DNA from: Planctomycetota bacterium
GTDB taxonomy: Bacteria > Planctomycetota > Brocadiia > Brocadiales > Brocadiaceae
Assembly (NCBI GenBank): GCA_016873165.1
Contig: VGXV01000032.1
Span: 1-36,980 of the forward strand
Length of the DNA stretch: 36,980 nucleotides
Reading direction: 5' to 3'
The position numbers were made by a program, and so were the translations under genes. Below the pieces are notes generated by a model that saw only the letters and a list, made by a program, of their open reading frames with translations, did no database searches and was not told the DNA's origin. Within the stretch, counting starts at the first letter, position 1. Every line of letters starts with the position of its first letter. Below are positions 34,227 through 36,833 of the stretch, piece after piece.

Positions 34227-35057
34227 TCAGCCTTTATATTCCGTAACCGCATTATAAATAGCAACTGTTTGTTCTATAAGAGACTGTAATTCATTCAGCG
34301 GCAGCATTGTGGCAGCATCGGAAAGGGCTTGCTCAGGATTTTCATGCACTTCCAGGAATAGTCCGTTACATCCTCCAGTGGCAACAGCAGCCCTAGCAAG
34401 TGGTTTTACCATTGTTCTGTCACCTCCGGACATGTTTCCCTGTCCTCCCGGAAGTTGCACGCTGTGAGTCGCGTCAAAAACAACAGGACAATTAAATTTT
34501 TTCATGATAATCAGGGAACGCATGTCACTTACAAGGTTATTATACCCAAAGCACGCACCGCGTTCGGTAAGTATGATTTTCTCGTTGCCGGCGCTCCTGA
34601 TTTTTTCAACGACTGATTTCATATCCCATGGTGCTAAAAATTGCCCCTTTTTTACGTTAACAGGTTTTCCGGTGTTTGCCGCCGCGAGGATTAAATCCGT
34701 CTGACGGCATAAAAACGCGGGGATTTGAATAATATCAAGCACGTCTGCAGCCATTGACGCTTCTTCCGCGCTATGAACGTCAGACAAAATCGGAATCTTT
34801 AAACGTTCCTTAATTTCATTTAATATTTCCAGCCCTTTTGCAATGCCGGGGCCTCTGTATGAATGAATTGAGGTTCTGTTTGCCTTGTCATACGAAGCTT
34901 TGAAGACAAACGGCACATTATTTTTCTGAAAAATATTCTTTAATTTTTCCGCTAATCGCAAACAACCTTCTTTGCTTTCAATAATGCACGGCCCTGCAAT
35001 AAAGAACAACTCAGATTCACGTATCGAAAAATTGTTTAATTGTATTTTATTTATCAT
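34227..35057 (-). CDS. kdsA: 3-deoxy-8-phosphooctulonate synthase (Kdo-8-P synthase)
   Basis: A 276-residue enzyme condensing phosphoenolpyruvate with arabinose 5-phosphate to Kdo-8-phosphate for lipid A-linked core sugars. FFIAGPCIIESKEGC gives the N-terminal strand; the Cys at residue 24 is the metal ligand of the metal-dependent class (non-metal enzymes have Asn). VFKASYDKANRTSIHSYRGP, ILSDVH, LCRQTDLILAAA, VNVKKGQF, FDATHSVQLPGG and LFLEVHENP complete the active site. It is the second gene of an operon, 25 bases after the HAD-YvcK fusion gene. The start has only weak GAG upstream. Its presence argues for a Gram-negative outer membrane. Confidence 0.96.
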   Translation of the reverse strand: MINKIQLNNFSIRESELFFIAGPCIIESKEGCLRLAEKLKNIFQKNNVPFVFKASYDKANRTSIHSYRGPGIAKGLEILNEIKERLKIPILSDVHSAEEASMAADVLDIIQIPAFLCRQTDLILAAANTGKPVNVKKGQFLAPWDMKSVVEKIRSAGNEKIILTERGACFGYNNLVSDMRSLIIMKKFNCPVVFDATHSVQLPGGQGNMSGGDRTMVKPLARAAVATGGCNGLFLEVHENPEQALSDAATMLPLNELQSLIEQTVAIYNAVTEYKG

Positions 35058-35082: not shown

Positions 35083-36780
35083 TTATTTCACCTTTACCAT
35101 GGGCAAATTCGCGTATACCCTGAATACCGCATCTGCAAGTTTATCGGGATCGTGGCGAAGCAAGTCCTGCTTTTCCCAAAGGATGCGTTTTTTATCAAAA
35201 TCTTCGACTAAATCCGCCATTTTTATATTTATGTTCAGTCTGTTTACCCCCTCGTCAAATTCAGCCAAAGCCGCCCCTTCTTTTTTGTATCTGTCGAGAA
35301 TCTCTTTCCGGGGAATTTTTTCATTCACAATCACATAATCAATAACGCCATTCTCAAGATATGTATTAATGGCCTTAATATGATCTGAAACTTTATAGTT
35401 ATCCGTTTGCCCTGGCTGAGTAACTATATTGCAAATATATATTTTTATCGCGTTGCTATTGCATATTGCGTTACGAATGCCTGATACCAGCAGATTAGTT
35501 ATAAGACTTGTGTACAAACTCCCCGGCCCTATAACGATAACATCTGCGTTTTGAATTTCCTCAACTGCCTCCGTCAATGGAGAAACATTCTCATTTTTTA
35601 AAAATACTCTTTTAATAGGAGCTTTTCCCACCTCACGAACATTAAATTCTTCTTCTACATACGTGCCATCCTCTAATTCTGCGCAAATGTGGGTATCTTC
35701 AAGCGTCGAGGGCAGCACTTTCCCTCTGATATTAAGGATTTTACTGGCCTTTTTGATAGCCTGTTCGAAACTGCCGGTAATGTCGGTTAACGCAGTCATT
35801 AACAAATTCCCCAGACTCATTCCTTTTAATGACCCTTTGTCAAATCTGTATTGAAAAAGCTGGTACAATTCCTGCTCCTGTTCTTCGGTTTCTGACAGTG
35901 CAATAAGGCAATTTCTTGCGTCACCCGGAGGAAGGATACCAAACTCTTCCCGCAAAATCCCTGAACTCCTTCCGGAATCGGTTACGGTAACCATAGCGGT
36001 AAGATGCTTACTGTATGTCTTTGCTCCCTCAAGCATGATTGGCAATCCCGTGCCTCCGCCAATCGCGACGATTTTGAGATTGTCAGGGGTCTTTCCACTA
36101 TTGTAAAGCTGAAGAATCGTAGGAAGCTGAAAAATGCGTTTTATTTTATAATCCGGTTTGTCGCATTCGTGTATTGGCTGCTCATGTTTAAACCTTCCAT
36201 GTAACATCTGTATGGTAATCATTCCTAAAGACTTTGCAGCCCTCAGTTCGTTTCGGGCTCTGTCACCTACCATCACCGCTTCATTCGGATTTAAATTATG
36301 CCTTTTCAGGCAATCAAGTATGCAATCTTCCATAAGCATACCGATTTCCTGGTCATTAATGATAATCTCGTTAAAATACGACTTTAAACCAAGTATCTTT
36401 AACTTGTTTTCCTGTCTCTCATGTACTCCCACGGTAAGTAAAAACAGTTTAAACCCCCGTTTTTTAAAATCTTTGAGGGTGGAAATTACATCGGGAAAGG
36501 GAACAATCCCGGAAAGTTCACTGCTGTTGTATGCGCGATACGCAATATTTACCAATTTTTTGTTTGCCTTGAATTTCTTTACAATTTCGTTAAACACCGG
36601 ATGATACGGGCCATGCCGCGCGATGAGTTCCTTTTGTAATTGATACGCATTTTCCTCTGTTGTGGGAAGTCCTGCTTCAACCATCGCTTTTGCCGCGCGT
36701 TTTCTGGAAGCATCAATCAACAAACCGGTGCAGTCGTACAGGGTATCGTCCAGATCAAAAAATAGTGCTTTTATTTTCAT
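35083..36780 (-). CDS. HAD hydrolase - YvcK/CofD-like fusion protein
   Basis: 565 residues with two whole domains. Residues 1-228 are a HAD hydrolase with the catalytic motif FFDLDDTLYD, LLTVG (motif II), a lysine region and MVGDRARNELRAAKSLG (motif IV), ending in a linker near LYNSG. Residues about 233-565 are a YvcK/CofD-like protein: IVAIGGGTGLPIML, MVTVTDSGRSSGILREEFGI, LPPGDARNCLIAL, and SLGNLLMTALTDITG, NADVIVIGPGSLYTSLITNL. Stand-alone YvcK binds UDP-sugars and coordinates envelope and carbon metabolism. Fusion with a HAD domain suggests a sugar-phosphate or nucleotide-sugar role (inference). AAGGAAGAA is about 8 bases before the ATG and a promoter lies at 36806-36833. kdsA follows after 25 bases. 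Confidence 0.9.
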   Translation of the reverse strand: MKIKALFFDLDDTLYDCTGLLIDASRKRAAKAMVEAGLPTTEENAYQLQKELIARHGPYHPVFNEIVKKFKANKKLVNIAYRAYNSSELSGIVPFPDVISTLKDFKKRGFKLFLLTVGVHERQENKLKILGLKSYFNEIIINDQEIGMLMEDCILDCLKRHNLNPNEAVMVGDRARNELRAAKSLGMITIQMLHGRFKHEQPIHECDKPDYKIKRIFQLPTILQLYNSGKTPDNLKIVAIGGGTGLPIMLEGAKTYSKHLTAMVTVTDSGRSSGILREEFGILPPGDARNCLIALSETEEQEQELYQLFQYRFDKGSLKGMSLGNLLMTALTDITGSFEQAIKKASKILNIRGKVLPSTLEDTHICAELEDGTYVEEEFNVREVGKAPIKRVFLKNENVSPLTEAVEEIQNADVIVIGPGSLYTSLITNLLVSGIRNAICNSNAIKIYICNIVTQPGQTDNYKVSDHIKAINTYLENGVIDYVIVNEKIPRKEILDRYKKEGAALAEFDEGVNRLNINIKMADLVEDFDKKRILWEKQDLLRHDPDKLADAVFRVYANLPMVKVK

Positions 36781-36805: not shown

Positions 36806-36833
36806 ATTATACCGAAGTGATTCTATTAGTAAA
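36806..36833 (-). promoter_or_regulatory. Promoter of the HAD-YvcK / kdsA operon
   Basis: Minus strand: TTTACT, 16 bases, TATAAT (perfect -10), 25 bases upstream of the ATG at 36780. Confidence 0.6.

Follow-up and report, generated by a model that had tools for sequence, protein, structure and literature searches.

The window, a 36,980-nucleotide stretch of contig VGXV01000032.1 from a planctomycete of the order Brocadiales (class Brocadiia), encodes a 565-residue protein in which an N-terminal HAD phosphatase domain is joined to a complete YvcK/GlmR domain. The component families are known, and the joined form is conserved class-wide and apparently undescribed: no description was found in the literature searched, a scope outside which most subscription papers and all bioRxiv preprints fall. 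We tentatively read the protein as a class-wide variant of GlmR/YvcK, in which a putative UDP-GlcNAc-binding regulator would carry its own phosphatase and UDP-GlcNAc might steer it.

Identification of the HAD-YvcK fusion

The gene (positions 35083-36780, minus strand) is a single uninterrupted open frame, both halves of which are matched by Pfam and NCBIfam profiles. The HAD hydrolase domain, with a helical cap, spans residues about 1-226 (36103-36780, minus strand), where the HAD_2 profile (PF13419) matches residues 7-190 at 81.6 bits against a cut-off of 23.8. The YvcK/GlmR (CofD-like) domain spans residues about 236-560 (35101-36075, minus strand); the Pfam CofD profile matches residues 237-524 at 342.4 bits (cut-off 30), and the NCBIfam YvcK profile TIGR01826 matches residues 237-555 at 343.9 bits (cut-off 196), covering profile positions 1-308 of 310, which places this half in the YvcK/GlmR family. 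The first-pass annotation had described a complete HAD domain with all catalytic motifs fused to YvcK, and the one 565-residue frame with both profiles over cut-off bears this out.

Beyond the start codon the contig continues upstream for 200 bp. An endonuclease V gene precedes the fusion in relatives, and no remnant of it was detectable in these 200 bp. A promoter-like TTTACT-16-TATAAT (36806-36833, minus strand) lies upstream of the gene as a consensus match only; the region holds 11 such sites where chance alone would give 10.3, and the counts from the promoter and terminator scans showed no excess over chance expectation.

Structure model of the fusion protein

The AlphaFold2 model, built with 12 sequences in the alignment, has two folded domains, with a mean pLDDT of 78.5 and a pTM of 0.78; the segments 272-284, 310-326 and 529-538 have pLDDT values under 50. 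Structural comparison placed the YvcK half on 2hzb with a Z-score of 37.7 and an rmsd of 2.3 over 308 residues. The solved structure nearest to the HAD half is PH1655 (2hoq), with a Z-score of 22.6, an rmsd of 4.8 over 226 residues and 32% identity, followed by phosphoglycolate and N-acylneuraminate-9-phosphatases. In the model, the HAD half has a helical insert after its first strand. Despite this likeness, PH1655 differs from the fusion in being a stand-alone protein of 241 residues, and it is named merely a putative HAD hydrolase. The Foldseek matches of the fusion also included MtlD of Acinetobacter, in which a HAD phosphatase is likewise fused to a partner handling sugar phosphates (mannitol-1-phosphate dehydrogenase). 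However, this partner domain is of another kind and the TM-scores are at most 0.30; only the general idea is common to the two proteins.

Distribution and origin of the fusion

A survey of lineages, proposed in the first-pass annotation, showed that 65 of the 75 class genomes have the fusion: 55 of the 62 in the order and 10 of the 13 from elsewhere in the class. The 65 include six partial or split copies: a stop or frameshift interrupts the fusion of G031, that of G325 is spread across two contigs, and those of G006, G029, G318 and G328 are partial. Such carriage shows that the fusion is neither a chance product nor a frameshift artefact, and its class-wide conservation likewise rules out a chimaera. 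In the set of 59 genomes that includes the window genome, the fusion is present in 52; three have only a paralogous stand-alone HAD (G008, G025 and G028), and four match neither the fusion nor the paralogue (G034, G043, G047 and G056). The further class genomes without the fusion are G322, G331 and G330, the last having a fragment of 33 residues where a contig ends. A separate YvcK was not found in any of the 75 genomes, and, contig or frameshift breaks aside, no class genome carries the two halves as separate genes.

Beyond the class, a sample of 292 genomes of the phylum yielded two more fusions, in G154 and G140; among the matches listed, the other out-of-class YvcK proteins align from query residue 227 or later and leave the HAD half unmatched. 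The fusion is also present in G332, a relative of G154, and gave no match in G095, the one relative of G140. A scan of named genomes with six short peptide patterns detected the HAD half at seven planctomycete loci; at a further seven loci, from other phyla, the YvcK part alone was matched. A tree built on the YvcK half puts 22 fused rows on one side of a branch (support 100/96) and 45 single-domain rows on the other, so that, judged from these sequences, the fusion has one origin; some of the end branches are long and the sister group of the fusions is uncertain.

Among close relatives, G002 carries a fusion 93% identical to the window protein. G003 holds two full-length copies (L005 and L110), 79% and 76% identical to it, which may reflect a recent duplication or a mixed assembly.

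The YvcK half retains the UDP-GlcNAc contacts and has an altered catalytic motif

Residue conservation was assessed in 51 distinct fusions, which are the proteins from the fetched loci and not from every fusion-bearing genome. The Bacillus residues tested for UDP-GlcNAc binding, T14, N218, Y265 and R301 (PMC5482804), correspond in the 2hzb alignment to T244, N451, Y498 and R542 of the fusion, which are kept in 51/51, 50/50, 50/50 and 49/49 of the fusions having the position. The retained contacts are consistent with the UDP-sugar-binding regulator postulated by the first-pass annotation.

The catalytic motif differs. The Asp38-Asp39 pair is reported to be required for catalysis by Bacillus GlmR, and a D38A D39A double mutant is reported not to complement in B. 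subtilis (PMC13046274); the Listeria counterpart of the pair is D40-D41 (PMC10128056). Counting by hand from the 2hzb alignment, aided by the fixed spacing to the counterpart of Listeria N198 (N429), we placed the Bacillus pair at D268-S269 of the fusion, within D268-S269-G270-R271 (codons at 35968-35979, minus strand), the site of the GlmR Asp-Asp-Gly-Gly. The fusions therefore lack an Asp-Asp pair at this site: D268 is kept and the second position is Ser in 50 and Thr in one, giving DSGR in 50 and DTGR in one, versus DDGG in 37, DNGG in nine and DTGG in one of 47 single-domain YvcKs. An Arg at position 271 is present in every fusion and in none of the 47 single-domain proteins, and P247, M321, V453 and R532 are further positions separating the two groups.

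A Ser or Thr at the second Asp is no proof of lost catalysis, because 2ppv from S. epidermidis and nine of the 47 single-domain proteins have DNGG and S. aureus GlmR is reported to be active (PMC10128056); the second Asp may be dispensable. The alteration touches the claim of uridyltransferase activity, not membership of the YvcK fold family. Thus, compared to Bacillus and Listeria GlmR/YvcK (TIGR01826; 2hzb, 2o2z and 2ppv), the fusion has the same domain, the fold over its whole length and the UDP-GlcNAc contacts, whereas it differs in its N-terminal HAD phosphatase and in the replacement of DDGG or DNGG by DSGR or DTGR.

This motif bears directly on an explanation in which the fusion is simply two enzymes in one chain, the YvcK half making UDP-GlcNAc or another UDP-sugar and the HAD half clearing a side product or a sugar-1-phosphate pool. 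It would agree with the retention of D268 and N429 in all fusions having the position, with the Asn that replaces the second Asp in 2ppv, and with the uridyltransferase activity reported for GlmR homologues of three firmicutes (PMC10128056). However, S269 (or Thr) together with R271 in every fusion, the failure of the B. subtilis double mutant and a GlmU already encoded in the genome, short at 320 residues but holding the uridyltransferase part, speak against it, and we consider this explanation unlikely. We instead favour, tentatively, a YvcK half that would serve mainly as a UDP-GlcNAc sensor and less as a full uridyltransferase.

Other N-terminal additions to YvcK were seen in the comparison. 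In another planctomycete (G175, L081:6953-8317, minus strand), the YvcK domain also bears an added N-terminal domain, which is not a HAD but a response-regulator receiver (PF00072, 36.5 bits). The single-domain planctomycete YvcKs at L071, L077, L078, L079 and L083 have an N-terminal extension that, judged by eye, resembles two membrane helices, and a Clostridium YvcK (L042) has a similar extension.

The HAD half is a predicted working phosphatase

HAD motifs I-IV (DxD, T/S, K/R and GD...D/E) are represented by D9, D11, T116, K126, D173 and E178, the last being the second acid beside D173. Five of the six, D9, D11, K126, D173 and E178, are invariant in all 51 distinct fusions, and residue 116 is Thr in 44 and Ser in seven, at a mean identity to the window protein of only 66% over residues 1-226.

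No substrate-specific NCBIfam family scored over its cut-off among the best 25 of 37 families matching the HAD half. The top match among these, TIGR02253 (CTE7), is the closest NCBIfam HAD family, but at 126.9 bits the fused half scores under its cut-off of 169.75. Weak matches were found to PpaX (60.9 bits), phosphoglycolate phosphatase (54.7 bits) and pyrimidine 5'-nucleotidase (49.3 bits).

Most genomes of the order also encode a stand-alone HAD paralogue (at L055, L056, L057, L059, L060, L061, L087 and others), which shares about 36-41% identity with the fused half. Its gene often follows the fusion immediately or lies close to a fabZ-like gene (fabZ named by eye). The paralogue keeps all six catalytic positions in 19 of 19 distinct rows.

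These profile matches, spread weakly over many substrate families, and the wide occurrence of a paralogue with the same catalytic residues would fit a HAD half with its own housekeeping substrate, such as a nucleotide, phosphoglycolate or a damaged metabolite, for which fusion fixes dosage or location without crosstalk. However, the lack of any class genome encoding the halves separately stands against this, and we regard it as a doubtful account. Many fused domains are structural, and nothing more direct speaks for a catalytically idle add-on, which is very improbable given that none of the 51 fusions has lost any of the six catalytic positions despite their sequence divergence. The tethered HAD domain, a predicted working phosphatase, most likely cleaves a small phosphate ester belonging to amino-sugar or envelope metabolism; both this substrate and the control of the domain are what we infer.

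Conserved neighbours and UDP-GlcNAc pathway genes

The fusion has family-specific neighbours. In family f1 it usually lies behind rnfC-rnfD-rnfG-scpB-endonuclease V (rnf and scpB named by eye), in families f2 and f5 behind an M54 peptidase gene and DUF192, and in family f4 behind DUF192. A second HAD gene usually follows directly in f2 and f4 (17 of 20 loci). In f4, nine of 13 loci have an archaeal-type glmU (TIGR03992, 477.4 bits versus a cut-off of 292.1) no more than 3 kb from the fusion, and in eight of the 13 glmM lies farther out; both genes are on the strand opposite to the fusion and convergent with it. As this neighbourhood is confined to one family, it lends modest support to a link with UDP-GlcNAc synthesis.

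GlmS scored over cut-off in 15 of the 16 class genomes examined. PF03668 (YvcJ/RapZ) gave no match in any of 16 class genomes, a result that carries no weight, as the control, B. subtilis, which has yvcJ according to PMC7525490, was also not reported by the profile.

The GlmU of the window genome (L090:1474-2436; G000, contig C19) consists of the uridyltransferase part plus the initial hexapeptide repeats and lacks the remainder of the acetyltransferase half; behind its gene lies one that resembles a ribose-phosphate pyrophosphokinase gene (named by eye). Similarly short GlmU frames occur in G001, G012, G020, G033 and G040.

kdsA adjacency is local, and kdsC is encoded separately

The gene directly behind the fusion is kdsA (34227-35057, minus strand), encoding a Kdo-8-phosphate synthase of 276 residues (TIGR01362, 399.6 bits; cut-off 314). 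It starts 25 bp past the fusion stop codon on the same strand, as the first-pass annotation had noted, and this spacing makes a common transcript plausible. That annotation further linked the fusion to LPS sugar synthesis and supposed that the HAD half could supply a missing Kdo-8-phosphate phosphatase; neither idea survived the wider comparison. The genome search proposed with it found a separate, intact kdsC (G000:C7:1354-1866; 170 residues, TIGR01670, 190 bits versus a cut-off of 106.95) directly behind a kdsD/kpsF-like gene. In a TIGR01670 search of the whole window genome (E <= 0.001), this kdsC was the sole match and the fusion was not matched. Moreover, kdsC scored over cut-off in 56 of 59 genomes, all but G034, G056 and G040, and in four of four fusion-bearing genomes tested outside the order.

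Adjacency of kdsA was found at three of 57 fusion loci, a count that includes repeat fetches of one genome and some loci with little downstream sequence (for example, 177 bp at L064 and 2 bp at L038). The three are the window, L047 and L032, of which L032 and L047 lie on the same contig, leaving two genomes, both of Kuenenia. A third Kuenenia genome, G001, has manC in place of kdsA beside the fusion, with kdsA at 230855 and the fusion at 4001581. The link is therefore limited to part of one genus, and we regard it as a local rearrangement or accident of gene order, outside the conserved unit and the mechanism.

KdsC is a HAD phosphatase as well, but a capless one, whereas the model of the fused HAD half has a helical insert. 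A HAD half acting as Kdo-8-phosphate phosphatase together with the downstream KdsA is the least probable explanation and is rejected: kdsA behind the fusion in two Kuenenia genomes, the acidic sugar phosphate that is likewise the substrate of the related N-acylneuraminate-9-phosphatase, and G040, which bears the fusion and kdsA without a kdsC over cut-off, are outweighed by the separate kdsC of nearly all genomes, the window genome included, and by the finding that no further genome examined has kdsA beside the fusion.

G040 (contigs C5 and C8) offers a natural case in which to seek another Kdo-8-phosphate phosphatase, or an assembly gap. Such a gap is possible since this genome is 94% complete; its genus mates G037 and G045 have kdsC.

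Proposed mechanism and implications

B. subtilis GlmR is reported to stimulate GlmS, a stimulation that UDP-GlcNAc blocks (PMC7525490; PMC6171935), and GlmR has also been described as a uridyltransferase (PMC10128056). In the fusion, the kept binding site, the altered catalytic motif and the attached phosphatase together point to a UDP-GlcNAc sensor that may steer the phosphatase. UDP-GlcNAc binding to the YvcK half would shift the activity or the partner of the tethered HAD half, which in turn would hydrolyse a small phosphate ester, such as an amino-sugar phosphate, from amino-sugar or envelope-sugar metabolism, and the outcome might be feedback control on entry into UDP-GlcNAc.

For this tentative reading we count the carriage in 65 of 75 genomes, the lack of a separate YvcK, the single branch, the HAD residues, the contacts and the altered motif, as well as the firmicute GlmR-GlmS control, the presence of GlmS and the glmU/glmM neighbours in f4. 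Counted against it are the convergent orientation of glmU-glmM and their restriction to one family, the lack of a substrate-specific HAD family over cut-off among the best 25 of 37, the variability of the second Asp in other members, and the retention of D268 and N429. A stricter form of the reading would have the GlmR domain turned into a pure sensor, with catalysis given up, so that UDP-GlcNAc controls the phosphatase allosterically as a feedback valve, standing in place of the firmicute GlmR-GlmS or GlmR-YvcJ partnerships; in this full form we think it unlikely.

Most knowledge of how carbon flow into UDP-GlcNAc is controlled comes from firmicutes, and for their GlmR two roles have been put forward, activation of GlmS and accessory uridyltransferase activity. 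In a lineage that keeps the sensor residues, changes the catalytic motif and adds an apparently functional phosphatase, nature would have separated these two proposed roles. The peptidoglycan of anammox bacteria was reported in 2015 (PMC4432595), and the fusion provides a concrete lead on envelope control in these organisms. Altogether, it suggests that anammox bacteria and their relatives may use a phosphatase that responds to how much of a cell-wall building block is present.
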